From positions 2,872,001-2,936,000 of the forward strand of contig NC_010718.1 of NCBI RefSeq assembly GCF_000020005.1: a DNA stretch of 64,000 bases, in the 5' to 3' direction. Source of the DNA: Natranaerobius thermophilus JW/NM-WN-LF. Its GTDB lineage: Bacteria > Bacillota > Natranaerobiia > Natranaerobiales > Natranaerobiaceae. A model generated the notes under the pieces. That model made no database searches and had not been told where the DNA came from. It saw nothing but the letters and a program-made list of their open reading frames with translations. The translations under genes were made by a program, and so were the position numbers. This document shows, piece after piece, positions 17,135 through 61,825 of the stretch (the stretch's first letter is position 1; each line of letters begins with the position of its first letter).

Positions 17135-17250
17135 CTCCTTATCTGTCAGAAGTAATACACTTCTGCAGGATTTGGCACCTTTACAGCAGGATTAGCTGCT
17201 GCCGGTTGCCGGGCTTCATAGGGCCAGTCCCTCCACCACTCTTGATAAGG
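17135..17250 (-). ncRNA. SAM-I riboswitch (S-box)
   Basis: Read on the minus strand: CTTATCAAGAGTGGTGGAGG, then GGCCCTATGAAGCCCGGCAA, then GGTGCCAAATCCTGCAG and the closing GATAAGGAG. These are the conserved P1, kink-turn and core stretches of SAM-I aptamers. SAM binding is expected to favour the terminator and switch off the downstream NhaC-type gene. Confidence 0.95.
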
Positions 17251-17304
17251 ATTCGATTAAGTTTTAAAGATAATCCTATTACTTTTAAGTAATATTTATA
17301 TTCA

Positions 17305-38006: not shown

Positions 38007-38582
38007 TTAACTGTTTTTTCCTAAGTCAAAGGCTTTTAAGTTGGCTTCTAAAGTCTTGGGAGGAACACGTTTTTTGATAATTTCTTTCCAATGATCTTCA
38101 GGTATATCAATATATTTGGACAGTGCCCCTACAAGGATTACATTTACAGTCTTAATATTACCAGCTTCTTTGGCAACCTCAAGGGCATTAAATGCATTAA
38201 CTTTTTCTGTAACTTCTTTTAAGTTCCCAATTGCATTTTTGGGATAACTGCCCTGTCCAATAGCCACTGGCATGGGGACAATTTGTTGTTCGTTAACAAT
38301 TATTCTAGTATCACTGTGAATATAATCTAACCATCTTAAAGTTTCCATTTGTTCAAAGGATAGGAGAAAATCTGCTTCTCCTTCTGTAATTAGTGGTGAA
38401 TAAACTTTATCACCAAATCTAACATTAGTGACTACACTGCCACCTCTTTGGGCCATTCCATGGACTTCAGATTTTTTCACATCATAATCTTTTGCAAGTA
38501 AGGCCTCACAGATCAGTTCACTTGCTAATAAAACACCTTGACCGCCTACGCCAACAATCATAATATTGGTTGTTTTATTCAT
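38007..38582 (-). CDS. iorB: Indolepyruvate ferredoxin oxidoreductase, beta subunit
   Basis: The 191-residue gamma-domain subunit of the 2-oxoacid:ferredoxin oxidoreductase. IMIVGVGGQGVLLASELICEA is the diagnostic N-terminus, with SEVHGMAQRGGSVVTNVR following. It overlaps the end of iorA by eight bases, so the two are co-translated. With IorA it oxidises aryl or branched 2-oxoacids to acyl-CoA with reduction of ferredoxin. Confidence 0.92.
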   Translation of the reverse strand: MNKTTNIMIVGVGGQGVLLASELICEALLAKDYDVKKSEVHGMAQRGGSVVTNVRFGDKVYSPLITEGEADFLLSFEQMETLRWLDYIHSDTRIIVNEQQIVPMPVAIGQGSYPKNAIGNLKEVTEKVNAFNALEVAKEAGNIKTVNVILVGALSKYIDIPEDHWKEIIKKRVPPKTLEANLKAFDLGKNS

Positions 38583-40338
38583 TTAAGTCACCTGCCTTTA
38601 CAATAGCATCAAACTTACAGACCTGTTGACAAACTCCACAACCGGTACAGAAAGTTGAATCTATTTTTGCCTTGCCATCTTCGCCTTTATAAACAGCGGA
38701 ACAACCTACTTTATAACACATTCCACATGCCTTACATTTTTCACTGTCTATTGTCAAACCTTCCCATCTTGAATCCTTATCAATTAATACACAAGGATTT
38801 TTGGTGATTATGATTGAAGGTTCATCCTTGGCGAGTTCCTCTTTAACAGCTTGTTCTACTTCATCAAGATTATAAGCATCTACTGTCCGAACATTATCAT
38901 TGCTAACACCGACAGCTTTACTTATCTCTTCAACATCAAGGGTTTTTGTACTTTCTCCCATGAGGGTTCTACCGGTACCAGGGTTCTCTTGATGTCCTGT
39001 CATACCTGTTGTTCTGTTATCTAAAACCATGATAGTTGAAGCGCCTTTATTATAGACAATGTCTATTAACCCAGTAATTCCAGTGTGAATAAATGTGGAG
39101 TCGCCTATTACACCAATTAGTTTGTCTTTTCCTTCCCCTTTTAGTGCCAGTTCGGCACCAAAGGTCATGCTGACGCTTGCTCCCATACATACTGTGGTAT
39201 CAATAGCCGATAATGGTGGTACAACTCCCAGGGTGTAACAACCGATATCACCCATGACAGCAAGATTAAGTTTATTAAGAGTATAGAAAACTCCTCGATG
39301 TGGACAGCCTGGACACAAGGCAGGAGGACGTGGTGGCAGGTCAACATCAGGATAAGAAACTTGTTCTGGTTTTTCACCCACAAGATTTTCTTTTAATATC
39401 TTTTGGTTTAATTCATATATCATTGGTAGTTCTTCTTTGCCGATAATTTCTATACCCATTGCTTTAATCTGTTCTTCCAAGAAAGGATCCAACTCTTCAA
39501 CAGCGTAAAGTTTATCTACTTTAGCACTAAATTCTTCAATCACTTTCTTAGGCAATGGATAAGAAAAGCCGAGCTTTAAAATTGAAGCCTGGGGCAATGC
39601 CTCTTTCACATAGTGATAAGAAATACCTCCAGTGATGACACCGATTTTGCTATCTCCCCATTCAATTTTGTTTAGTTCCGTCTGATTTGAAAACTCCTCC
39701 AGTTGTTTCATCCTGTCTTCTACTACTACATGACGTTTTCTAGCATTTCCCGGAACCATGACAAATTTTTCAGGATCTTTTTCAAATTCTTCTAGTGACT
39801 GAACCTGCTCACGTTCTCCAAGGGTAGCTACTGTTTTAGAATGGGATATTCTTGTAGTTACTCTAAAAAGCACAGGAGTGTCAAACTTTTCACTGATTTC
39901 GAAAGCATGTTTGACAAACTCTCGGGCTTCTTCACTATCTGATGGCTCTAACATGGGAACTTTGGCGAACCTGGCAAAATGGCGATTATCTTGTTCGTTT
40001 TGTGAACTATGCATGCTGGGATCATCTGCTGATACTACTACCAATCCACCTTTCACCCCTGTATAGGACAGGGTCATAAAGGGATCAGCCGCCACATTCA
40101 AACCCACATGTTTCATAGCAACCAAGGATCGGGAACCTCCGAAACAGGCGCCAATGGCCACCTCCATAGCCACCTTCTCATTTGGAGCCCATTCACAATA
40201 AACTTCATCTTTAAATTTTGATACATTTTCTAAAATCTCTGTGCTCGGAGTGCCAGGATAAGCTGTTGCAACTGTAGCGCCGGCTTCATAGGCGCCTCTG
40301 GCAATTGCTTCATTTCCAGATAATAAAACTTTACTCAC
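38575..40338 (-). CDS. iorA: Indolepyruvate ferredoxin oxidoreductase, alpha subunit
   Basis: A 587-residue TPP enzyme. AYPGTPSTEILE and CEWAPNEKVAMEVAIGA mark the pyrimidine-binding half. CPGCPHRG and GDIGCYTLG, then MGASVSMTFGAELA with GDSTFIHTGITGL, mark the TPP/Mg half. The C-terminus carries ferredoxin-like clusters (CKACGMCYKVGC and CTGCGVCQQVC). GTG start at 40338 after GGGGAGAGG. In this operon it would act on the keto acids made by the amino acid dehydrogenase, feeding acyl-CoA to Ptb. Confidence 0.94.
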   Translation of the reverse strand: MSKVLLSGNEAIARGAYEAGATVATAYPGTPSTEILENVSKFKDEVYCEWAPNEKVAMEVAIGACFGGSRSLVAMKHVGLNVAADPFMTLSYTGVKGGLVVVSADDPSMHSSQNEQDNRHFARFAKVPMLEPSDSEEAREFVKHAFEISEKFDTPVLFRVTTRISHSKTVATLGEREQVQSLEEFEKDPEKFVMVPGNARKRHVVVEDRMKQLEEFSNQTELNKIEWGDSKIGVITGGISYHYVKEALPQASILKLGFSYPLPKKVIEEFSAKVDKLYAVEELDPFLEEQIKAMGIEIIGKEELPMIYELNQKILKENLVGEKPEQVSYPDVDLPPRPPALCPGCPHRGVFYTLNKLNLAVMGDIGCYTLGVVPPLSAIDTTVCMGASVSMTFGAELALKGEGKDKLIGVIGDSTFIHTGITGLIDIVYNKGASTIMVLDNRTTGMTGHQENPGTGRTLMGESTKTLDVEEISKAVGVSNDNVRTVDAYNLDEVEQAVKEELAKDEPSIIITKNPCVLIDKDSRWEGLTIDSEKCKACGMCYKVGCSAVYKGEDGKAKIDSTFCTGCGVCQQVCKFDAIVKAGDLNE

Positions 40339-40358
40339 AGTCCTCTCCCCTTTCGTTA

Positions 40359-41273
40359 TTAATTATTAATAGATAATGCCCCTAGGGCCATTGAAGTCAT
40401 TTTTGTTTCTAAATTATCAGATCTAGAAGTTAAGACTATGGGAGTTTTTGCCCCCACAACAAGGCCTGCCATGGTAGCGCCCCCTAAGAAAGTCAGGGAC
40501 TTGGCTAGTTGATTACCTTCTTCTATATCTGAAACAAATAAAATATCTGCTTCACCGGCTACTGGACTACTAATCCCTTTATGTTCAGCAGCTTCTTTAC
40601 TAACTGCATTATCTAGAGCAAAGGGACCATCCACTACTGCGTTCTTAATCTGACCTCTGTCAGCCATTTTAGATAAGATTGCTCCATCCACAGTGGCCTT
40701 CATTTTCGGGTTTACCTGCTCCACAGCCGCCAATGCAGCTACTTTAGGAGGTGAAACCCCAATGCTATTAACAAAGTCTGCTGCATTTTGAATAATCACC
40801 TGTTTTTCTTCAAGTTCTGGTGATATATTGATACCACCATCTGTTATGAAGAGTAATCTATCAAGATTAGCTACATCGATACAGGCTAAGTGACTTAAAA
40901 TTCTGCCAGTCCTGAGTCCATAATCTGAGTTCAAAACTTCTTTTAGAAAAGATGAGGTGCCAATTAGCCCCTTCATCAAATAATCAGCTTCACCTGAAGA
41001 TACTAACTTTACAGCTGTAGTGGCAGCGCTTTTTTCATCTGATTCTTCAATTATTTCAAGATAGTCGGTATCGAGATCTAAACCAATATTCTGTGAAAGG
41101 TTCTTTATCTCTTGTCCATTACCGACCAATTTAAATTTAATTTGTAACTCTTTCTCTATAGATAATTTAACGGCTTCTAGAATGGTTTGATCAGCTGCCT
41201 GTCCAATAGCCAATGTGACGGGTTTGATATTTCTTACCTGTTCAGTTAAGTCCGAAAAACTTTGAATTCTCAT
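40359..41273 (-). CDS. ptb: Phosphate butyryltransferase (phosphotransacylase)
   Basis: A 304-residue phosphate acyltransferase that swaps CoA for phosphate on butyryl-, isobutyryl- or isovaleryl-CoA. The pattern MKGLIGTSSFLKEVLN, then FITDGGINISP and VDGPFALDNAVSKEAA, and the end FLGGATMAGLVVGAKTPIVLTSRSD are typical of Ptb rather than acetate Pta. It lies between buk and iorA on one strand. ATG behind AGGAGGGGG. Confidence 0.93.
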   Translation of the reverse strand: MRIQSFSDLTEQVRNIKPVTLAIGQAADQTILEAVKLSIEKELQIKFKLVGNGQEIKNLSQNIGLDLDTDYLEIIEESDEKSAATTAVKLVSSGEADYLMKGLIGTSSFLKEVLNSDYGLRTGRILSHLACIDVANLDRLLFITDGGINISPELEEKQVIIQNAADFVNSIGVSPPKVAALAAVEQVNPKMKATVDGAILSKMADRGQIKNAVVDGPFALDNAVSKEAAEHKGISSPVAGEADILFVSDIEEGNQLAKSLTFLGGATMAGLVVGAKTPIVLTSRSDNLETKMTSMALGALSINN

Positions 41274-41329
41274 TTTTAAGTTCCCCCTCCTAAATACAGA
41301 CTTTTAACTTTACTTAAATACTGTTTATT

Positions 41330-42388
41330 TTAATAAATCTTGGCAGTTTCTTCTCCGTTGAGTACCCTTAAAGCCCCCAGGGCTAGTGCCTCCAACTCTT
41401 CTTCCCCAGCTTCAACTTTTACAGGTCCTAAAAAGGAAACCCTTTCTTTTATTTGGTCAACTATATATTGAGAGTTTGCCATACCACCAGTTATGACAAT
41501 GGCATCCAGTTCACCATTTAGGACAGTAGCCATAGCACCAATTTCCTTGGCTATTTGATAGGTCATGGCTTTTAATACCATATCTGCCTGTTCGTCACCT
41601 GATTTAGCCTTTTCTTCTACTTCTTGGATATCTTTTGTTCCCATATAGGCATAGACTCCACCTTTTTTGAGAACTCTTTCAACCATTTCTTTTTCTGTGT
41701 ATTTACCTGAATAGCACAATTGAATTAACTGGTATACGGGGAGAGTCCCTGTTCTTTCTGTAGCAAAAGGGCCTTCGTTGTTGGCATTGTTTACATCAAT
41801 CATCTGGCCTTTATAATGAGGAGCTACCGAAATACCGCTTCCTAAATGAGCCACAATTAGTTTTAAATCTTCATAGGAGCGATCCATTTCCCTTGCTACT
41901 TTACGGGCCACGGCTTTCATATTTAAAGCATGGGATTGGCTTAATCTTTCTAATTCTGGTAAACCTGAATATCTGGCGATATCTTCAAACTCGTCAACAG
42001 CTACAGGGTCCACAATATAAGCTGGAATATCCAGTTCTTTTGATAGGATATCAGCCATAATAGCCCCTAGATTTGAGGCGTGTTCTCCATATTTAGCTTG
42101 TTTCAAATCATTTATCATGGTTTCTGTTACTTTGTAAGTTCCACCTGGAATTGGTCTTAACAATCCTCCTCGAGCTACGACTGCATCAAGTTCTTCTAAT
42201 TCCACATTAATTTCTTCCAGGGTCTCCTTTATATGCTTAAGCCGATATTCATCTTGATCTGCCACATCTTGATACTCAGCCAATTCATCGGCACTATGTC
42301 GAACTGTTTTTTCAGTTGTTGCCGTCTCATTTTCATATAAAGCAATTTTTGTGGATGTGGAACCTGGATTTATAACAAGTATCTTCAA
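41330..42388 (-). CDS. buk: Butyrate/branched-chain fatty acid kinase
   Basis: A 352-residue acetokinase-family enzyme that makes ATP from butyryl- or branched acyl phosphate. INPGSTSTKIALYENE is the phosphate 1 loop, then VARGGLLRPIPGGTYKV, then LIVAHLGSGISVAPH and VITGGMANSQYIVD, all as in Buk. The start is TTG behind AAGGAGG. With Ptb it completes substrate-level phosphorylation from amino-acid-derived acyl-CoA. Confidence 0.93.
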   Translation of the reverse strand: MKILVINPGSTSTKIALYENETATTEKTVRHSADELAEYQDVADQDEYRLKHIKETLEEINVELEELDAVVARGGLLRPIPGGTYKVTETMINDLKQAKYGEHASNLGAIMADILSKELDIPAYIVDPVAVDEFEDIARYSGLPELERLSQSHALNMKAVARKVAREMDRSYEDLKLIVAHLGSGISVAPHYKGQMIDVNNANNEGPFATERTGTLPVYQLIQLCYSGKYTEKEMVERVLKKGGVYAYMGTKDIQEVEEKAKSGDEQADMVLKAMTYQIAKEIGAMATVLNGELDAIVITGGMANSQYIVDQIKERVSFLGPVKVEAGEEELEALALGALRVLNGEETAKIY

Positions 42389-42420
42389 TTATAATCCTCC
42401 TTCCTTGGTTTTAACATGCC

Positions 42421-42457
42421 TATAGGTTCCTGGACCTGGACTGATCCAGGAACCTAT
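42421..42457. other. Intercistronic 12-bp perfect hairpin
   Basis: ATAGGTTCCTGG and its exact complement CCAGGAACCTAT lie between the dehydrogenase and buk genes. There is no T run on the minus strand, so it may be an mRNA stabilising or processing stem rather than a terminator. Confidence 0.5.
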
Positions 42458-42514
42458 AATAAGATTTTTAAAGTTCGAACATTTTATATTAATATTTTCG
42501 TTAAAGTATTTTCG

Positions 42515-43603
42515 TTATTTCTTTTCTTCAACTAAAAAGTTTTTTCTGACCTCTGCTACTGTATCTAATCGATCTTCTACTAATATATTGGCTGCTTGAT
42601 AAGTAGGTACTCGCTTTTCTTCAGATATTTTGAAAATGTCTAACAATATTTCATATATTCTAGCCGTAGTTTTCATAACTCTGTCATGATTGAATTCTTT
42701 GACTTCATCAGCTGCTTGAATTAGCCCTCCGGCATTAATTACATAATCCGGTGCATATAAAATTCCCTTTTCAAATAAAATATCACCGTGTTTATCCTCT
42801 TGTAACTGATTATTTGCTGAACCCGCTACAATATCACATTTTAATTTTTCAATAGTGAAGTCATTGATAACTGCACCTAATGCATTGGGACTGAAAATAT
42901 CGCAATCCACTTCATAAATCTGATCCGGTTCACACGTTTCAATCTGTGAATATTTCGATTTCAATTCTTCAATGGCATCTTTACTAATATCAGTTGCCAC
43001 TACCTCAGCCCCTTCATCTTCAATTAAATGTTTAACAAGTAATTGCCCAACTTTTCCTAAACCTTGGACGGCAACTTTTTTTCCTGATAGCGAATCAGTT
43101 CCGTATTTTGCTTTAGCAGAAGCCTTCAATCCCTGCCAGACACCATAGGCCGTGGTAATAGCAGTACTTCCGCCACCACCGAATTCTACAGGACGTCCTA
43201 CTATACAATCTGTTTCTCTCATAGAGTGAATAAAATCGTCTGGGGATGTTCCCACGTCAGTACCAGTGTAATAACGTCCTCGCATAGTTTGAACAAAACG
43301 TCCCAGGGCTCTGAACATTCCTTCATTTTTTTGTTCTGGATCTCCAATCATAACTGTCTTTCCACCACCATAATCCACACCTGAAACTCCACATTTGTAG
43401 GTCATACCTTTAGATAAGCGAAGGACATCGGTTAAAGCATCATCATCGCTTTCGTAGTCCATCATCCGGCAACCACCAAGAGCCGGGCCCAAAGTAGTGT
43501 CGTGGATTGCAATAATAGCTTTTAAACCAGTTTTTTTGTCATAATTAAAAATCACCTGTTCATGACCCTGTTGCTCCATTTCCCTAAAAACCTGTTCAGA
43601 CAT
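42515..43603 (-). CDS. Leucine/valine/phenylalanine-type amino acid dehydrogenase
   Basis: A 362-residue NAD-dependent enzyme that deaminates branched-chain or aromatic amino acids to 2-oxoacids. The catalytic lysines lie in LSKGMTYKCGVSGVDYGGGK; the glycine-rich NAD motif is VAVQGLGKVGQLLVKHL; GTDVGTSPDDF and VAGSANNQL are family landmarks. Length and layout match Bacillus leucine dehydrogenase. ATG at 43603 follows AAGGAGG. A triple half-site operator lies 60-86 bases upstream. Leucine versus phenylalanine preference cannot be told by eye, but the Ior partner hints at aromatic substrates too. Confidence 0.9.
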   Translation of the reverse strand: MSEQVFREMEQQGHEQVIFNYDKKTGLKAIIAIHDTTLGPALGGCRMMDYESDDDALTDVLRLSKGMTYKCGVSGVDYGGGKTVMIGDPEQKNEGMFRALGRFVQTMRGRYYTGTDVGTSPDDFIHSMRETDCIVGRPVEFGGGGSTAITTAYGVWQGLKASAKAKYGTDSLSGKKVAVQGLGKVGQLLVKHLIEDEGAEVVATDISKDAIEELKSKYSQIETCEPDQIYEVDCDIFSPNALGAVINDFTIEKLKCDIVAGSANNQLQEDKHGDILFEKGILYAPDYVINAGGLIQAADEVKEFNHDRVMKTTARIYEILLDIFKISEEKRVPTYQAANILVEDRLDTVAEVRKNFLVEEKK

Positions 43604-43662
43604 CTTAAAAACCTCCTTGAAAAGATTTTTTAAAATATTAACTCTTCATAATTTATTTATAG

Positions 43663-43689
43663 TTCCATTGTATGGAACGGTGTTCCATA
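43663..43689. promoter_or_regulatory. Triple half-site operator before the dehydrogenase gene
   Basis: GTTCCAT-TGT-ATGGAAC-GGT-GTTCCAT forms two overlapping palindromes sharing the centre, i.e. GTTC-N9-GAAC-N3-GTTC. The same order and spacing occurs before brnQ at 45967. A -10-like TATAAA lies next to it on the minus strand, so the site overlaps the promoter. Confidence 0.75.
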
Positions 43690-43716
43690 AAAAGATAAAA
43701 ATTTTTAGACTTTCAA

Positions 43717-44481
43717 TCAGAGAAATTTGGAAATCTGAGCCGATGTTAGTTTTAATTGTTTAATTATTTCCGGAAAACGATTATAAATTCTATTTACTGG
43801 ACCTGAAACACTAACTGCCGCTACAGCATGACCTTCTTGATCAAATATAGGAGTTGCCAAACAACTCAAGCCAATCTCTATTTCTTCATAGTCGATAGCA
43901 TAACCTTTTTCTCTTACCTCTTCTAAAATTCTATATAACTCTTTAAAGTCGGCAATTGTATTTGAAGTAAATTCTTCTAATGGTTTTTGTTTAAGCTGTT
44001 CTAGTACGCCTTCATCACTGTATGCCAATAAAACTTTTCCAACACCGGAACAATGAGCTGGTGTTCGTGACCCTACTGGAGGTGAAATAGTCAACATATG
44101 TTCAGTCTGAATCTTCTCAACAACAATAACTTCTGGATCATCTATCTCATCAAGTATTGCAAGATTGACTGTTTCATTTACATCCTCTGACAATTTTTTT
44201 AGATACGGATAGGCCACATCTTTTAATACAAATTTGTCTTGATATAACATGCCTAAGGAGAAATTTTTAACTCCTAACCAGTATTTATTTGTAATGGGAT
44301 TTTTGTAAATAAAGCCACGGCTACTTAAAGTTGATAGTATCCTATGTACAGTACTTTTATAATAACCTAAAGAATGACTGATCTCACTCACACCTAGTTC
44401 TCGTTTTTTTTCTAAAAATAGTAGTAGTACATCCAGGGCTCTTTCAATGGCTTGAATATTTTTAGATTCGCTATCGCTCAT
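43717..44481 (-). CDS. IclR-family regulator of the amino acid fermentation cluster
   Basis: About 254 residues. N-terminal helix-turn-helix (IQAIERALDVLLLFLE, then GVSEISHSLGYYKSTVHRILS) and effector domain (RTPAHCSGVGKVLLAY, then IGLSCLATPIFDQEGH, then AVSVSGPVNRI). The ATG at 44481 is better spaced from AAAGGATGGGA than the upstream one at 44493. It lies between brnQ and the dehydrogenase, all on the minus strand. Two matching triple half-sites, one before each flanking transcription unit, make it the obvious candidate to bind them. Confidence 0.88.
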   Translation of the reverse strand: MSDSESKNIQAIERALDVLLLFLEKKRELGVSEISHSLGYYKSTVHRILSTLSSRGFIYKNPITNKYWLGVKNFSLGMLYQDKFVLKDVAYPYLKKLSEDVNETVNLAILDEIDDPEVIVVEKIQTEHMLTISPPVGSRTPAHCSGVGKVLLAYSDEGVLEQLKQKPLEEFTSNTIADFKELYRILEEVREKGYAIDYEEIEIGLSCLATPIFDQEGHAVAAVSVSGPVNRIYNRFPEIIKQLKLTSAQISKFL

Positions 44482-44571
44482 TTTGGATCCCATCCTTTAC
44501 ATAAAAGTTATCTAAACTGAGTTTCATTTTATATTGTGTTAATTATAACAGATTGTTGATTTTTGGTAAAT

Positions 44572-45887
44572 TTAAGCTGTGTCTGTACTCTCCTTAGTCC
44601 GTAGAGAAATCCCTCTTTTGAGTAACTTAGAAATCAAGGCAAACAAGATGGCAGGTACTATCCATTGAACACCGTATTCTGCAAATGGTAAATTCCCCAT
44701 AATACTTTCGAGTCCGTAAAGTTCTAAATCTAATAACATGGCTGAGTCAAATAAACCAACTATAAATGCTCCAAAAACAGCTCCCCGATAAACCACTTTA
44801 TCTTTTATGTAATTATTAAAGATTGTCATAATTATCAGAACAATGGCGACAGGATATATTGCTACCAAAATTGGCTCAGCTATCCTTACAATAGATTCTA
44901 CTCCAGCATTGGCAAAAAAAGCACTAAATAAAACAGTTACCCAAACTACTAGTTTATAATTTAATTTACCATTTGTAATTCCACTAAAGAATTTGCCAGC
45001 TGTGGTTGTTAGGCCTATTGAGGTAGTTAGGCAAGCTAAAAATACACTCATCCCCAAGGCATAAGTACCAATAGAGCCTAATATTTTATCGCTCACTCCA
45101 ATTAATAATTCTGTTCGATGGATCCCCTCAGAAAAAACTGCACTGGAAGTTGCTCCTAGAAACAGCAATCCACCATAAATTAATCCTAAACCTGTAGCAG
45201 CAATCATTCCTGCTCTAATTGTTATTGAAACTTGATCTGATGTGGTACTATAACCTTTTTCATTCAAACTGCTAATTATGATGGTCGCTAGAATAACCGA
45301 ACCTAATGCATCCATAGTTTGATAACCTTCTGTTAAACCAGTTTTAAAGGGTGTAGCAGCCTCCATATCTACGGGATTACCTATGGGGTTTAAAATCCCA
45401 CCTATAACTATTGCTCCCAGAATTGCAACTAAGATTGAAGTCAAGTATTTTCCAATCCTATCTATAACTGAAGAAGGATTGAGAACAAAATATAATGTAA
45501 GTCCAAAAAAGATAGTTGTAGTAATTATTGAAGCAATAAGTGAATCACTGAAAAATGGTACAACTCCTAGCTCAAAAGCCGTTGCTCCAGTTCTGGGAAT
45601 AGCTAATAAAGGTCCAATTGCCAAAACAATCACTATTCCGAAAATTTTTCCGAAATTGGGGCTGACATTTTTTCCAAAATCATCAACAGTGCCGCCGGCT
45701 ACCGAAGCTGCAATAACCCCTAACAGAGGAAGCCCTACTCCTGTTAACAAAAATCCAACTGCAGCGGGCAACCAGTCACTTCCAGAAGAATGACCTAAAA
45801 ATGGCGGAAAAATCACTTACCTGCTCCTAAAAACATGGCAAAAAGAGCGAAACCGATAATGATTGTGTCAGAACTTTTCTTACTCAT
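44572..45887 (-). pseudogene. brnQ: Branched-chain amino acid:cation symporter gene with a one-base frameshift
   Basis: The gene begins at ATG 45887 behind AGGAGGG and reads SDTIIIGFALFAMFLGAGK, then stops. The family continues this segment as GAGNLIFPPFLG. Shifting by one base near 45816-45818 restores exactly IFPPFLGHSSGSDW and 414 further residues of a complete LIVCS-family carrier with about 12 helices. A single missing base explains the break. A GTG at 45816 could start the truncated protein, but it lacks most of the first helix and any ribosome site. Possible explanations are recent decay, sequencing error, or slippage at no obvious slippery run. The cluster's uptake step depends on this gene. 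Confidence 0.82.
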
Positions 45888-53981: not shown

Positions 53982-54152
53982 GTGTAAAATTTAGAGTAAT
54001 AGTTCTTGTAATAGTTCTTTCAATAACTTAATAAATATATTCATATAAAAATTTCGAAAACAAGTTTTAGGAAGGAAAATATCAAGTTTACTAGAATATT
54101 AATCAGTTAAACAGTTTTGTTTTAACAAATTAAAGCATAAGGAGGTATGAAG

Positions 54153-55541
54153 ATGGAATTAACACATCAACCTGAACTATTATTTTTCTTAATAATCTAT
54201 TTCGTTCTCATGATAGGTATTGGTTTGTATTATTCCAGAAGAATTAAAAACAGTGAGGATTTTATGTTGGCCGGAAGGGGTTTGGGACCAATTGTCTTAA
54301 TGGGTACACTCCTGGCTACATGGGTAGGAAGTGGTACGGTTACAGGAGGTAGTACGTCCATAGGGTATTCTTATGGTCTTTGGCCCGCGATACTATTCGG
54401 ACTATCTAGCTTACTCGGTGTTAGCATTTTGTACATCATTGCACCAAAAATCAGAGCTTCAGGTAAGTACACAATTGCGGAAGCTTTAGAAACAAAATAC
54501 GGTGAAACAGCCAAAATCATTGCCAGTATTATAATTATCCTGGCTTTTGTCGGGATAGTTTCTTATCAGTATACTGGCCTAGGAATGGTATTGAACGTAA
54601 CTACAGGTGTTTCCGTTGATGCAGGTACAGCAATAGCAGCTGTAATTGTAATCTTCTTGGCTACCGTTGGAGGATTAATGTCAGTTGCACCTACTGATGC
54701 TCTCAGTGCTTTTATCATAGTCATTGGATTGATAGTAGCTATCCCATCTGCTTTGATTCAGGCTGGAGGATGGGAAAATGTTGTAACCCAGGTTCCAGAA
54801 ACTAGTTTATCAGCTTTGGGAGAGCTAGATTTCATTGGATTTTTAGGATATTTTTTACCAACTTTATTTTTACTACTGGGTGATCAAAACATGTATCAGA
54901 GATTAGCTTCATCAAAGGGTGATAGTGAAACTAAGATGGGAACAATTGGCTGGGCCGTTGGACTATTGGTCATTTATCCCGCTATTTCACTAATAGCTTT
55001 TTCAGCTAGAGTTAACTTCCCTGACATTGATCCTGGGCAGGCACTAATAGCTACTACGACAATTATGCCGACTTTTATTGGTGGATTAATGCTGGCTTCA
55101 ATCACCGCCTTTATTATCACTACTGGTAGTTCCTATTTGTTATCATCTGCAACTAATATAACTATGGATATCTACAGAAACTACGTCAACAAAAATGCCA
55201 GCAGTAAAGAACAGCTATTGTTAACCCGGGGACTGATAGTAGTCTTAGGAATTCTAGCCTATATCCTGATACAGTATTTCCCTTCAATATTAGAGGCTCA
55301 GATGTACGCTTATACAGTCTATGCGGCAGGAATCACCCCTGCTATTTTAGGTGTTTATCTATGGGGCAATAAGGTTACGAAAATAGGCGGTATTGCCTCC
55401 ATGTTAAGTGGAGTTATTGTGACTCTGGGAATTGAATTTTTTGACATTGTAGGCTATGACCCGGCCCTGATATCCGTTCCTGTGGCTATTATAGTCTTGG
55501 TAGTAGTTAGTTTGATGACCCAAAGTTCAAGGAGGGAGTAA
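54153..55541 (+). CDS. Sodium:solute symporter (SSS family)
   Basis: About 462 residues with 12-13 helices. YYSRRIKNSEDFMLAGRGLG, then ATWVGSGTVTGGSTSIGYSY and the Na+-site stretch ITTGSSYLLSSATNI belong to the PutP/SSS family for proline, pantothenate and similar solutes. The ATG at 54153 is seven bases after AGGAGG; the one at 54147 is too close. The stop TAA is followed after one base by the TTG start of the amidohydrolase, so the two are co-translated and probably import and hydrolyse the same compound. Confidence 0.88.
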   Translation: MELTHQPELLFFLIIYFVLMIGIGLYYSRRIKNSEDFMLAGRGLGPIVLMGTLLATWVGSGTVTGGSTSIGYSYGLWPAILFGLSSLLGVSILYIIAPKIRASGKYTIAEALETKYGETAKIIASIIIILAFVGIVSYQYTGLGMVLNVTTGVSVDAGTAIAAVIVIFLATVGGLMSVAPTDALSAFIIVIGLIVAIPSALIQAGGWENVVTQVPETSLSALGELDFIGFLGYFLPTLFLLLGDQNMYQRLASSKGDSETKMGTIGWAVGLLVIYPAISLIAFSARVNFPDIDPGQALIATTTIMPTFIGGLMLASITAFIITTGSSYLLSSATNITMDIYRNYVNKNASSKEQLLLTRGLIVVLGILAYILIQYFPSILEAQMYAYTVYAAGITPAILGVYLWGNKVTKIGGIASMLSGVIVTLGIEFFDIVGYDPALISVPVAIIVLVVVSLMTQSSRRE

Positions 55542-55542
55542 C

Positions 55543-56745
55543 TTGAATCGAACTGGACAGGAACCTTTGTTAATTAGATCTGTCAATGTAATCACCGGAC
55601 AGAATGACGAAATATTAGAACAGTACGATGTTTATATAGAGCAGGGAAGTATCGCTAAGATAGGCAAAAACTTAGCAAATGAGGCCAAGTTAGCTGATTG
55701 GAATGTCATTGAAGGAACGGGCAAGTATTTAATCCCAGGCCTAATTGACACCCATGTTCATTTAGTTTGGGACGGAAGTGGTGATCCCCAGGCAGAAATT
55801 GAAGGCAAAAGCGAGTCTTACATGGCCTTGATGGCTGCTCGACAAGCTCAAGATTGTCTTAAAAACGGCATCACTACTGTAAGAGACGTAGGAAGCCCGG
55901 GAGAAACTGTTTTAAATTTAAGGGATGCCATTAAAGGTGGAAAGCTTGAGGGTGCAAACATTGTCAGTTCTGGTTCTGCCCTTGTAATGATCGGTGGCCA
56001 TGGCTGGTTTTTAGGAACAGAAATTTCCGGCCCTGAAGAAGCACGCAGAGCAGCTAGAGAAGTTTTAAAACAAGGGGCTGACCTGATAAAAGTTATGGCT
56101 ACAGGCGGTATTTATACCCAAGGTGAAGAGCCGGGAGCTCCCCAACTCTCAGAAGAAGAGATGAGAGCTGCTGTGGTAGAAGCTCATAACCAAGGGAAAA
56201 AAGTGGCTTCTCACGCCCAGGGATCAACTGGTATCCACAACTCTATCCAAGCCGGTGTAGATTCAGTAGAACACTGCATATTTGCCGATGAGAAAGCATT
56301 AACTAATATGCAAGATAGAAATATCTTTATGGTACCTACCCTGGCGGTTATGAAGCGAATGGCTGATATCGGGGTTGGTGGAGGACTACCAGAATATGCT
56401 GCGGAAAAAGCCAAAAGAGTTGTCAAAATTCACAAGGAAACATTCAAAACTGCAGTTGATTTAAATGTCAAAATTGCAGTAGGTACAGATTTGTTTGCAC
56501 CTTATCTGCCTGTTGAGCAATATTTTACCGAATTAAAAATTATGAATGATTACGGTATGTCTCTGTCTGATGTGTTGAAGTCAGCAACATCAGTAGCTGC
56601 TGAACTCCTCCAGTTAGAAGATAGAGGTGTTATTGCAGAAAATAAAGTGGCAGATTTAGTTTTATTAAATGAAAATCCTCTTAATGATGTTAAGGCCTAT
56701 CAGAATCAAGAAATGATTATTAAAGAAGGTAGAATAATTAAATAA
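55543..56745 (+). CDS. Metal-dependent amidohydrolase, prolidase/imidazolonepropionase-like
   Basis: A 400-residue TIM-barrel amidohydrolase. Metal ligands: HVH in LIDTHVHLVWDG, the likely carboxylated lysine in GADLIKVMATGG, His in VASHAQGS, His in SVEHCIF, and Asp in KIAVGTDLF. This set fits the subgroup containing Xaa-Pro dipeptidases and other N-acyl hydrolases. The TTG start lies one base after the SSS stop, with GGAGGG inside the end of that gene. A paralogue is at 60602. The nearby proline-reductase-like protein suggests a prolyl dipeptide or a cyclic proline derivative as substrate, which is inference. Confidence 0.82.
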   Translation: MNRTGQEPLLIRSVNVITGQNDEILEQYDVYIEQGSIAKIGKNLANEAKLADWNVIEGTGKYLIPGLIDTHVHLVWDGSGDPQAEIEGKSESYMALMAARQAQDCLKNGITTVRDVGSPGETVLNLRDAIKGGKLEGANIVSSGSALVMIGGHGWFLGTEISGPEEARRAAREVLKQGADLIKVMATGGIYTQGEEPGAPQLSEEEMRAAVVEAHNQGKKVASHAQGSTGIHNSIQAGVDSVEHCIFADEKALTNMQDRNIFMVPTLAVMKRMADIGVGGGLPEYAAEKAKRVVKIHKETFKTAVDLNVKIAVGTDLFAPYLPVEQYFTELKIMNDYGMSLSDVLKSATSVAAELLQLEDRGVIAENKVADLVLLNENPLNDVKAYQNQEMIIKEGRIIK

Positions 56746-56809: not shown

Positions 56810-56872
56810 GGCTTGTCCATTTGCTAGAGTAAATTTTGATATAACTCTACGCTTCAATGGGCAAGCCTTTTT
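56810..56872 (+). terminator. Terminator after the amidohydrolase gene
   Basis: GGCTTGTCCATT pairs with AATGGGCAAGCC and is followed by TTTTTT. A second copy of GGCTTGTCCATT lies just before it at 56790. Confidence 0.75.
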
Positions 56873-57017
56873 TGTTCTTAGGCTATATAACAGGATGTTA
56901 TTTGCTATTCATGGGATAAAATTTTTCCTGTAAAATTCTCATAATGGTTCAAGCAACAGTTAAAACTAGAAATGTTAAAACAGCTTCGCAACAGATCATC
57001 AAACAGGAGGATTTTAT

Positions 57018-58949
57018 ATGAATAGACATTTAGAGATACAAGGTTTTCAAATTTCCGAACTAAATTTGAATTCCCATGGTAGGACTGAAATTCAAGGTAA
57101 TAAATTATTAGTAAATAGTAATATTACTCAAGAAGTAGCAGCCAAATATCCCGAGCTAAAAGATATTAAAATGCGCGTATTCACTAGCAAAGATGAAGAT
57201 ATTGAAGTGAATACCATGATGGATGTTATTCCTGTAAAGACTAAAATGGAAGATAAAATGGGTACAGGTACCACTTTAGAGTTGAATGGCATCACAGTAT
57301 TACTGACAGGGAGAGAAGCCAGCGGCAAACAGGTAGCGGAATTCGGTAGCACTGCTGGAAAAGTTTCAGAAAAGATCGCCTTTAATATGCCTGGTTGTCC
57401 TGATGAAGAAGATTTAATATTAAACCTGGATATGATAATCGAAGACGGTATAGCCATGACTAGGGACGGTCCTACAGCCTGTCACAGGGCAGCTGATGAA
57501 ATAATACAAGAAATCAGAAATGCAATTAAAAGGGACATAAATAATACTCCCCCTCATACTACTACAACAGTCACTGAAGGAGATACTCCGTCCCATCAAG
57601 ATAAGCCGGAAGTTGTTCTAGTCAAAGAAATGATGGGTCAAGGGGGAATGCATGATAATTTATTGCTTCCTCTAGAACCTTGTGGAGTAACTGGTGGTAA
57701 GAGCGTAGTAGATTTGGGCAATGTCCCGGTGCTAATGTCACCCAATGAAGTTAAAGACGGTGGCATCCATGCCATGACCTGTGTAGGACCATCAACTAAA
57801 GAAACCACTAGACATTATTCTAGGGATCCGTTACTCCATAAATTATATGAAGACACAGATCTTTATTTCTCTGGAGTATTGGCCGTAGGCTCACCTCAAT
57901 CAAATCATGAAAAAGAGTATGTAGCTGAACGTGTGGGCATGGCTATGGAAAAACTTCAACCTGATGGTGTAATTGTTATGACTGAAGGTTTCGGGAATAA
58001 CCATATTGATTTTGCCAAACACATTGAAGAAGTGGGTAAAAGAGGTTTCCCGGTAGTTGGGGTTACTTATGCAGCTAAACAAGGAGCTTTAATTATCGGA
58101 AATGAATTTATGGATGCCATGGTGGAATTAAACAAAAGCGATAGTATGTTTGAAACGGAAGTATTAGCTGAAAACACATTGACCGATTGGGATGCTGACA
58201 GAGCAGTTACCATGCTAAAAAACAAATTAACCAATAATACTGAATTAATAAATTCGGAAGTTCCTGTCCCCCAACAGCCTCCCGCTGTTTGGACAGAAGC
58301 TCCTAAGGATCTATCTAATACGAAAGTAGCCCTGGTTTCAGCTGCAGGTATTCATTTAAAAGATCAAGAGCCCTTTAATAAGGCTGGAGATAACACTTAT
58401 CGAAAAATCCCTTGGGATGTGAGTTCTGAAAATTTAATGGTAACTCACGGAGGATATGACCACAAGGACGTCAGACAAGATATAAATTGCATGTTCCCCA
58501 TCGACAGATTAAACGAACTAGCGGATGAGGGAATGATTAAAGGAGGCAGTGCCAGCCATATAGGTTTTATGGGAGGTGGAGGCGATTTTGATGCCTTCAA
58601 TGATAGTGTAGGTCCAGAAATAGCACAGCAATTGAAAGAAGCTGAAGCAGGAGCAGCCATTTTCACTGCTGGATGAGGAACTTGTCATCGCTCTGCCGTG
58701 ATTGTGCAGAGAAGGGTTGAAGAAGCCGGTATACCAACAATAATGATTGCCGCTCTGCATCCTGTAGCTAAACAGCAAGGTTCACCTAGAGCTGTTCACG
58801 CTTTAGTTCCCATGGGTGCCAATGTAGGCCCTCCCAATGATGTAAAAGTGCAAAAGAATATTATACGAGAAGCCCTGCAAAACCTTATTGAAATAGATGA
58901 ACCAGGTAAGTTTATTAGTATACCTTATGAATACCAAGCAAAAATATAA
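57018..58949 (+). CDS. D-proline-reductase-like selenoprotein, PrdA-type and PrdB-type parts fused
   Basis: The frame runs through an in-frame TGA (58674-58676) to TAA at 58949, 643 residues with Sec553. Residues about 1-180 resemble the PrdD/PrdA beta region (VLLTGREASGKQVAEFGS, then PTACHRAADEIIQEIRN). Residues about 200-400 resemble the PrdA alpha region; Cys255 in GIHAMTCVGPSTKE is the probable self-cleavage site that becomes the pyruvoyl group. Residues about 425-643 are PrdB: VALVSAAGIHLKDQEPF, HGGYDH, INCMFPIDRL, SHIGFMGGGGD, then TAG-Sec-GTCHRSAVIVQR and PRAVHALVPMGAN. The sequence after the TGA continues PrdB without a gap, so this is decoding, not decay. In known systems PrdA and PrdB are separate proteins. 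The enzyme would reductively open a proline-like ring using thiol or thioredoxin-type electrons. ATG follows CAGGAGG. No prdC, prdE or racemase gene is adjacent. Confidence 0.85.
58691..58711 (+). promoter_or_regulatory. SECIS-like hairpin after the Sec codon
   Basis: CTCTGC (58691-58696) and GCAGAG (58706-58711) form a perfect 6-bp stem around CGTGATTGT. The loop starts 20 bases after the TGA and has G at its second position, in the range expected for bacterial SECIS elements. Confidence 0.6.
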
Positions 58950-59068: not shown

Positions 59069-59761
59069 TTAATTTTTACTCGGTAAATAACTTGATAACT
59101 CACCTGACAAGCTTTGAATAGGCATAGTTTGAAGCCAGACTTTACCAGGGCCTGTCAGGCTTGTTAAGAAAAATCCTTCTCCACCTAAGAACATATTTTT
59201 GATACCCTTAACCCTTTCCACACTCATATTAACACTTTCCTCAAAAGCACCCACTGACCCAGTTTCCACTTTAATAGTCTCTCCTTGGGCCAGTTCTTTT
59301 TCAACACATTCCCCGTCTATCTCAATAAAGGCCATACCGGTTCCTGAAAGTTTCTGCAGTACTAGGCCTTCTCCACCAAAAAAGCCAGCCCGCAGTTTTT
59401 TGTGAAAGTACAGGCCGTACTCTACATCTTCAGTGGCACATTAAAAAGATCTTCGTTGACAGATCATAGTTCCCTTGGATATATCTAGAGGAATAATTTT
59501 ACCAGGATAGGTGTGGCCAAATGCTACCTTGGCATTATCTTGCAGTCCTGTAAAATATGTCAAGAACATACCTTCACCGGAAACACTTCGCTTAAGAGCT
59601 CCCATGACCCCACCTTTCATACCGGTATCCATTTTTACATTGGCATCCATCCACTGCATGGCACCTGCTTGACAGTATAGTCGTTGGTCCTTTTGTAGAC
59701 TAATTTCTAGCATAGGCATTACAGAACCTAAAATCTGATAATCAAAATAAGACATATACAC
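59069..59761 (-). pseudogene. AIM24-family (TIGR00266) protein gene with one in-frame stop
   Basis: Read in one phase, this encodes 230 residues of the AIM24/DUF124 family. The pattern is MLEISLQKDQRLYCQAGAM, then GGVMGALKRSVSGEGMFLTY, then GTMICQRRSF, a TAA at 59441-59443, then CATEDVEYGLYFHKKLRAG and FFGGEGLVLQKLSGTGMAF and the rest to the normal end. Both halves are intact and in frame, so a single base change made the stop. Start is GTG 59761 or ATG 59755 behind GAGGAG. AIM24-like proteins have no settled function in bacteria. The downstream half has no good start of its own. Confidence 0.85.
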
Positions 59762-60601: not shown

Positions 60602-61825
60602 CTAGACGGATTCGGCGATAGTTAATTCCTCAGGTTTGATCTCCCTACCCATTTTGTATATACTGTGGATTTTTTCAATATCTTCAATATCTGCTACAGG
60701 ATCTCCATCAATAATTAACAGATCAGCATACAATCCCGGTGCAATTTGACCAACTTTATCGGAAATTCCGAGAAGTTCTGCCCCCATGTAAGTGGCTGTT
60801 TTTATTGCTTCTAAAGGATCCATACCGTGTTTTACCATCAATTCCAGTTCAAAACTGTTTTTACCATGTTCGTTAAAAGGAGTACCAGCATCGGTTCCCA
60901 AGGCAATATTGACACCTGCTTCATAAGCTTTTTTAAAGTTGCTTACATGATCCTCAATAATAGCATCACTTTTTTTAACGGCATGTTCGGGAATACCAGC
61001 TTCTCTACCTTTTTCAGAAATCCAATACGGAGCAGATAAAGTTGGAACTAAGTACACTTCTTGTTCTACCATGGTTTCTATGATGTCATTATCGAGAAAA
61101 ATACCATGTTCTACTGAATCAATGCCAGCTTCAATGGCATTTTTTATACCCCTGATTCCCTGGGCATGAGTTGCTGTTTTTTTGCCACCCTTGTGAGCTT
61201 CTTCCACAGCAGCTTTGATTTCTTCTTTGGTAAGCTGGGGAGACCCTGGTTCTACTCCTTCTGTCATGACACCACCGGTGGCCATTATTTTCAATAAATC
61301 CGCACCCTTTTTCAGCTGTTTTCTAGCTCCTTTTCTGGCTTCACTTTCTCCATCAATCTCTTCACCAATGGCCCAACCATGGCCGCCTGTCATAGTAAGA
61401 ATTTTACCCGATGCGAACATCCTAGGGCCAAGATGTTTTCCTTCATGTATGCTATCTCTCAAGTCAAGATCAACGTAATTCTTTCCACCCATATCTCTTA
61501 CAGTAGTCACACCAGAGAGTAAAGTTTTCAAAGCATAGCTGGCAGCTTTCAATCCGGTCCGGGCATCGGATTCCTTAGTCAGGACAGAAAAAGGATCAGC
61601 ACAGGGCTCAAAGCAAAAATGTACATGGGTGTCCACTATGCCTGGCATAAGAGTTTTACCTTGATAGTCTCGAATTTCCGCATCTGAGGGGATATCTATC
61701 TCGTCCATCTCACCCCAAGAATGAATTTCACCTTGTTCATTTATGACCACCACTCCATTAGGTACCGGCTCCTTTCCTGTACCATCAATAATTGTAACAT
61801 TCGTCAAAGCCTTTATAGCCTTCAT
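60602..61825 (-). CDS. Metal-dependent amidohydrolase, paralogue of the 55.5-kb enzyme
   Basis: A 407-residue enzyme with the same ligands as its paralogue: HVH in IVDTHVHFCFEP, lysine in GADLLKIMATGG, His in TATHAQGI, His in SVEHGIF, Asp in IALGTDAGTPFNEHG. The last stretch matches imidazolonepropionase-like and Xaa-Pro dipeptidase relatives. ATG follows AAGGGGGTAG. Two related hydrolases flanking the proline-reductase-like gene suggest related but not identical substrates. It appears to be a single-gene unit, with a full dispersed repeat just upstream. Confidence 0.82.
   Translation of the reverse strand: MKAIKALTNVTIIDGTGKEPVPNGVVVINEQGEIHSWGEMDEIDIPSDAEIRDYQGKTLMPGIVDTHVHFCFEPCADPFSVLTKESDARTGLKAASYALKTLLSGVTTVRDMGGKNYVDLDLRDSIHEGKHLGPRMFASGKILTMTGGHGWAIGEEIDGESEARKGARKQLKKGADLLKIMATGGVMTEGVEPGSPQLTKEEIKAAVEEAHKGGKKTATHAQGIRGIKNAIEAGIDSVEHGIFLDNDIIETMVEQEVYLVPTLSAPYWISEKGREAGIPEHAVKKSDAIIEDHVSNFKKAYEAGVNIALGTDAGTPFNEHGKNSFELELMVKHGMDPLEAIKTATYMGAELLGISDKVGQIAPGLYADLLIIDGDPVADIEDIEKIHSIYKMGREIKPEELTIAESV

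Follow-up and report, generated by a model that had tools for sequence, protein, structure and literature searches.

The window analysed here, a stretch of 64,000 nucleotides (C2:2872001-2936000) from a genome of 3,191,453 bases in three contigs (G000), carries a gene in which the two catalytic halves of D-proline reductase, PrdA and PrdB, are joined in one selenoprotein frame. Judged from its sequence, the gene is a new arrangement of known PrdA and PrdB parts, and its product is D-proline-reductase-like rather than a proven D-proline reductase. We lean towards the reading that it encodes a compact, PrdC-independent pyruvoyl and selenoenzyme of the D-proline-reductase type, most likely one that opens the proline ring. 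The observed part of this reading consists of the fusion, its conservation, its motifs, its selenocysteine signals and the missing partners.

One continuous frame for PrdA and PrdB

The frame has a single in-frame TGA, at codon 553, and is otherwise open; with the TGA read as selenocysteine (Sec) it gives 643 residues. The following elements were located within it and directly upstream.

56810-56873, + strand: probable terminator at the boundary between the upstream operon and the fused gene; inverted repeat and T-run seen by eye, with a loop too large to be picked up by the terminator scan
57005-57010, + strand: Shine-Dalgarno sequence AGGAGG, 7 nt 5' of the ATG, read from the sequence; similar sites in G001 and G002
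57018-58949, + strand: selenoprotein gene joining prdA and prdB (643 codons and a TAA stop), with its counterpart in both G001 and G002
57018-57779, + strand: PrdA-core residues 1-254 (TIGR04480), predicted to be the chain freed N-terminal to the cleavage site
57780-57782, + strand: codon of Cys255, predicted cleavage and pyruvoyl site (T254/C255), aligned with the invariant Cys in 18 PrdAs
57780-58238, + strand: PrdA alpha-like region, residues 255-407 (TIGR04480), homologous to PrdE, whose start is this site
58233-58280, + strand: short variable linker, about residues 406-421, at the PrdA-PrdB join, from the alignment of the three fused proteins
58245-58943, + strand: PrdB domain over its full length, residues 410-642 (TIGR04483 at 332 bits, cut-off 300)
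58674-58676, + strand: in-frame TGA, Sec553 in TAG-U-GTCHR (UxxC); same TGA in the fused genes of G001 and G002 and in nearly all separate PrdBs
58691-58711, + strand: putative bacterial SECIS hairpin (CUCUGC, CGUGAUUGU loop, GCAGAG), folding in most homologues and marked by synonymous-site conservation

Among the NCBIfam models, PrdA covers residues 3-407 (model positions 168-566 of 587, 515 bits) and PrdB covers residues 410-642 (model positions 5-237 of 238, 331.6 bits), while Pfam places Gly_reductase on 4-356 and GRDB on 373-551. The one-chain PrdA-PrdB protein of the original prediction is thus borne out, with the same layout in three genera. That prediction was to fall if similarity to PrdA were missing upstream of residue 400, or if a stop and a separate start lay between the halves; the similarity is strong instead, and no such stop or start is found in any of the three genera. 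The PrdB half scores above the curated cut-off along the model, with Sec in a UxxC motif and a SECIS signal. The PrdA half stays under the equivalog cut-off (514.9 bits against 700) because the N-terminal extension, model positions 1-167, is missing.

Is the N-terminal region closer to PrdA or to PrdD? It had been described as PrdD/PrdA-like, and only the PrdA part of that description stands, since the PrdD model TIGR04482 gives 238 bits, against 515 for PrdA and its own cut-off of 320, and its match stops at residue 254. PrdD corresponds by homology to residues 3-254 and PrdE to residues 255-405, but the two have neither the cleavage Cys nor a PrdB part and form a separate clade. In a tree of each half, the fused genes form one clade (100/100), nested in the PrdA or PrdB group and apart from PrdD/E. 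A PrdD/E origin of the N-terminal part was rejected by these scores and the tree, despite a VGPSTKETT motif shared with PrdE. The same homology bears on a second reading, in which the fused protein is non-catalytic or accessory like PrdD and PrdE, either uncleaved or without reductase activity. PrdD and PrdE match the two halves of the PrdA core, the fused protein and PrdE have VGPSTKETT in common, and the two proteins have been proposed to act indirectly as stabilising proteins (PMC3091704). This reading is improbable, because the fused protein keeps the T-C cleavage pair that PrdD and PrdE do not have, has a complete PrdB part, Sec and SECIS included, that is conserved in three genera, groups with PrdA and PrdB in both trees, and in G000 and G002 would find no other PrdA or PrdB to assist.

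How widely does the fusion occur? Three genomes of the order, each of a different genus, were examined, and in a search of 101 related genomes the same continuous fusion with one internal TGA was found in G001 (same family, 72% identity) and G002 (same order, 69%). Other genomes with the fusion, which the original prediction proposed to look for, therefore exist. Elsewhere it is absent: prdA and prdB are only separate in a 398-genome sample of the phylum together with 26 genomes of the class of G038 (about 400 others), in keeping with the earlier statement that the pyruvoyl and Sec subunits of described enzymes are separate proteins. Two long frames, of 932 residues in G196 and 900 residues in G409, were considered as independent fusions and rejected, since in each a stop and a small gene separate prdA and prdB and the frame is a read-through of the stop. 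The viral contigs searched gave no match to the fused gene, and a scan of genome contigs gave one classical cluster in a MAG and nothing else. No report on this fusion or on Natranaerobius selenoproteins was found among open-licence papers; an earlier account in a subscription journal or an annotation in a database is possible.

Between the fused genes of the three genera, identity is about 87-88% at codon position 2 and 42-46% at position 3, therefore strong purifying selection acts along the whole gene. Could the frame still be an artefact of annotation or sequence, or could translation end at the TGA and yield a PrdA-like protein of 552 residues? In formal terms TGA is a stop codon, at which a simple gene finder would cut the frame in two. 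We consider this explanation hardly credible, however, because the identical arrangement occurs in three genomes of different genera, conservation of frame, motif and synonymous sites runs past the TGA to the last residue, and a tRNA-Sec is present.

The closest known system is the classical pair PrdA and PrdB (TIGR04480 and TIGR04483), for example in Clostridium sticklandii, C. difficile and the Terrisporobacter plasmid pTG1. The fused protein has in common with it both catalytic halves, the T-C site, Sec in UxxC, the SECIS-type hairpin and the order of A then B, with 45-52% identity over the PrdA core and 55-61% over PrdB. The D-proline reductase system has pyruvoyl and Sec on separate subunits, whereas here a single frame encodes both in three genomes. 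In the classical cases inspected, a small gene with a CBO2463/CBO2479 domain lies between the two genes; in the fusion one polypeptide is made, this gene and the PrdA tail are lost, and the linker takes up the place that they and the beginning of PrdB have in unfused clusters. The component B pairs of glycine, sarcosine and betaine reductase (GrdE-GrdB, GrdG-GrdF and GrdI-GrdH) belong to the same superfamily and use pyruvoyl and Sec chemistry, but they are separate subunits with 25-35% identity to the fused protein, which scores at most 95 bits with the NCBIfam models for component B, far under their equivalog or exception cut-offs of 602-800. As a side observation, the 21-kb plasmid pTG1 of Terrisporobacter glycolicus (NZ_CP117524.1) carries prdC-prdA-CBO2463-prdB, and prdA/prdB are also found on plasmids in Ligilactobacillus and other genera.

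The stem of the fused clade is long (0.87-1.05), and the AU test does not reject a topology with this clade as sister to the classical PrdA and PrdB of G001 (p-AU 0.36). For PrdA, 110/152 classically conserved positions are kept in all fused proteins and 25/152 are changed in all; for PrdB the counts are 88/112 and 10/112. The consistent changes include E113A, E148T, A155C, N230V, N486R, T531V, A594H and P595A (classical residue, window protein position, fused residue). Cys155 is gained in all three fused proteins, GPTACH standing against GPxAAH with the classical Ala, and is possibly an extra redox thiol.

Predicted pyruvoyl site and selenocysteine decoding

The Cys255 that had been proposed to form the pyruvoyl group is upheld by alignment. 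It lies in HAMTCVGPSTK and aligns with the Cys of HALTCIGPASK, invariant in 18/18 separate PrdAs aligned, and the context of the T-C site is conserved as well (HAMTCVGPSTKETTRHY aligned to HALTCIGPASKE(T/N)(T/S)RHY). The pyruvoyl peptide of C. difficile is PrdA aa421-427, with a reported m/z of 642.3457 (PMC9908766). By our own arithmetic this mass is that of pyruvoyl-IGPASK, which aligns at C255; therefore the C. difficile pyruvoyl site and C255 are the same residue. A cut between T254 and C255 would split the proprotein into chains of about 28 kDa and about 42 kDa, and the larger, residues 255-643, would then carry the N-terminal pyruvoyl group and Sec553 together. An AlphaFold model built on few sequences has a mean pLDDT of 57 and a pTM of 0.40, at which the Cys255-Sec553 distance and the geometry of the two cofactors are not readable and a fold search is meaningless.

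A tRNA-Sec was found in G000, G001 and G002. The hairpin CUCUGC-N9-GCAGAG begins 15 nt 3' of the TGA, and over codons +6 to +12 past the TGA the synonymous identity among 17 non-redundant genes is 0.86-1.0, against a mean of 0.45 in the rest of the gene. Such frozen synonymous sites over the hairpin are the pattern expected of a conserved SECIS, while folding energy gives no significant SECIS signal (z about -0.1). Sec553-GTC556 matches the PrdB motif, and the catalytic Cys and UxxC motifs do not vary among the three fused proteins and 18 separate homologues, apart from the PrdB of G203, a separate protein with Cys in place of Sec. On these signals, with the TGA at the same place in G001 and G002, the decoding of the UGA as Sec553 foreseen by the original prediction is well supported.

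Free-standing PrdB-like selenoproteins of about 250-268 aa were also seen in seven genomes (G234, G040, G381, G353, G190, G039 and G019; e.g. L012, L046-L049), with 31-38% identity to the PrdB half and UxxC-type motifs in a different context; the same search gave no PrdA partner for them. Separately, G000 has a second GrdE-like protein with no adjacent GrdB (L061:6402-7712, about C2:1106401-1107711), in which Ser stands at the position of the GrdE cleavage-site Cys (NGNSIIACDKNTTYHH, against SGNCVSACDKNTTYHH in L003). From its sequence it would be either a copy that has lost activity or one whose pyruvoyl group comes from Ser.

Missing extension, missing partners and surroundings

Apart from that of G044, separate PrdAs carry 160-250 residues ahead of the core, an extension with a SAF domain (PF08666). 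The SAF-containing extension is absent from the fused genes and is found nowhere else in G000 or G002; the original prediction had remarked that the N-terminal extension of classical PrdA seems absent from the gene. The start codon and a Shine-Dalgarno-like site fall at the same aligned place in all three fused genes, therefore the absence is not a mis-called start.

The partners of the classical enzyme are missing too. For PrdC (TIGR04481) neither genome has a match above the cut-off of 490, the highest scores being 221 bits in G000 and 216 bits in G002, and no proline racemase (PF05544, PrdF) is found in either; G001 has two. No PrdD or PrdE was found in G000 with the fused protein as query, only GrdE/GrdB-like genes, and none in G002; neither genome has another PrdA or PrdB. 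The early remark that prdC, prdE and racemase genes are not adjacent thus extends to the whole G000 genome. G001 has two classical prdC-prdA-prdB-racemase sets alongside the fused gene, with PrdC above its cut-off. Four RnfC-like genes of G000 (C2 522804, 561616, 1140516 and 2783738) are weak PrdC matches, with 192-221 bits against 490, and are possible alternative electron donors.

Among 18 genomes, PrdC is present in 15/15 of those whose PrdA bears the extension and in 0/3 of those without it (G000, G002 and G044). By our simple count this has a chance of 1 in 816, a figure that ignores relatedness and rests on perhaps two independent losses. Since extension and PrdC are lost together, we propose that the SAF extension may be the docking site of PrdC. 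The short PrdA of G044 (L070:6069-7544) is like the fused protein in that its extension is cut to a remnant and its genome has no PrdC above the cut-off and no racemase; unlike it, PrdA and PrdB are separate genes and the PrdA clusters with classical PrdAs. This state looks intermediate.

The fused gene stands alone in the window, the inverted repeat and T-run lying between it and the upstream operon. No conserved operon partners are seen across the three genomes, and the neighbours differ in each. The suggestion of a compact reductase is accordingly supported: the gene lacks the SAF extension, PrdC, racemase and PrdD/E, and in G000 is a single-gene transcription unit. Its neighbours in the window include the following.

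54147-55541, + strand: sodium:solute symporter of the SSF family (PF00474), with a weak match to PutP
55543-56745, + strand: Xaa-Pro-dipeptidase-like amidohydrolase (best match NF051886, 289 bits, under the cut-off of 500)
60602-61825, - strand: second Xaa-Pro-dipeptidase-like amidohydrolase (best match NF051886, 349 bits, under the cut-off of 500)

The two prolidase-like genes thus flank the fused gene on both sides. In G002 the fused gene lies beside glutaminase-proC-proB-proA. Farther off in the window, 38007-45816 (-) encodes the alpha and beta subunits of indolepyruvate:ferredoxin oxidoreductase (IOR), a phosphotransbutyrylase-like protein, butyrate kinase, an amino-acid dehydrogenase, a regulator and a branched-chain amino-acid transporter. 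By its gene content this module is an oxidative Stickland branch for branched-chain or aromatic amino acids, to which a reductive branch would fit. Two unrelated features were also noticed: an AIM24-family gene (59069-59761, -) that a lone in-frame TAA (59441-59443) interrupts and whose two parts match one Pfam family, and a SAM riboswitch (17136-17251, -; RF00162, 93 bits).

Proposed reaction and substrate

What would the enzyme do? The scheme put forward for the classical enzyme (PMC3091704) starts with the proline nitrogen bound to pyruvoyl and the alpha carbon under attack by Sec; a Cys then resolves the resulting selenoether, leaving a selenide-sulphide for PrdC to reduce. We infer cleavage, substrate, product, donor and role of the fused enzyme. 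By analogy with the classical scheme, its pyruvoyl group would hold the ring nitrogen of proline, Sec553 would attack the alpha carbon so that the ring opens and 5-aminovalerate is formed, and C556 would then resolve the selenoether, giving a selenide-sulphide, with these steps taking place within one chain or between chains of an oligomer. Because PrdC is absent, another dithiol donor would reduce the selenide-sulphide, and thioredoxin, by analogy with glycine reductase, is the simplest guess. The likely role would be that of an electron sink in Stickland-type amino-acid fermentation.

Several lines of evidence favour this compact, ring-opening reductase: matches to the PrdA core and PrdB over the whole length, invariant catalytic motifs, purifying selection, the tRNA-Sec, the conserved hairpin, the C. 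difficile pyruvoyl peptide aligned at C255, the proline-related neighbours (prolidase-like genes in the window, proC-proB-proA in G002) and the oxidative Stickland module. Against it stand the lack of a PF05544 racemase in G000 and G002, which leaves them without an evident source of D-proline, the changes at 25 PrdA and 10 PrdB conserved positions and the long stem; moreover, the prolidase-like genes are under their family cut-off and are not adjacent to the fused gene in G001 or G002.

Could the substrate have shifted? In a rival reading the same pyruvoyl/Sec chemistry acts on a substrate other than D-proline, which could be L-proline itself, some other cyclic imino acid or one of the compatible solutes that halophiles derive from proline. 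This is a serious though less probable alternative. The absence of PrdC and racemase from the two genomes, the long stem and the consistent changes at 35 conserved positions speak for it, and G001 has two complete classical prd clusters in addition to its fused gene, which argues against simple redundancy. On the other hand, the motifs around C255 and Sec553 are essentially unchanged, those neighbours that give any hint indicate proline (the prolidase-like genes, and proA, proB and proC by the gene in G002), and the residue changes could instead be a consequence of a different topology of the chains or of losing PrdC. Along the same line, a possible but less likely reading is a one-chain pyruvoyl/Sec reductase specific to Natranaerobiales, working without PrdC and racemase on a substrate other than D-proline and so a new activity of the Prd/Grd superfamily. 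We retain the compact proline-ring-opening reductase as the preferred reading.

D-proline reductase is a main electron sink in Stickland fermenters, including C. difficile, and the host of the fused gene is a salt-loving soda-lake bacterium. The copy of the Protein Data Bank searched holds no relatives of PrdA or PrdB. A natural single-chain version without PrdC, racemase and the SAF extension is a simple target for structural and mechanistic work; in it the ratio of pyruvoyl to Sec is fixed, and the need for PrdC and for the SAF extension can be put to a direct test. The fused enzyme may be a natural minimal proline reductase, or one whose substrate has changed.
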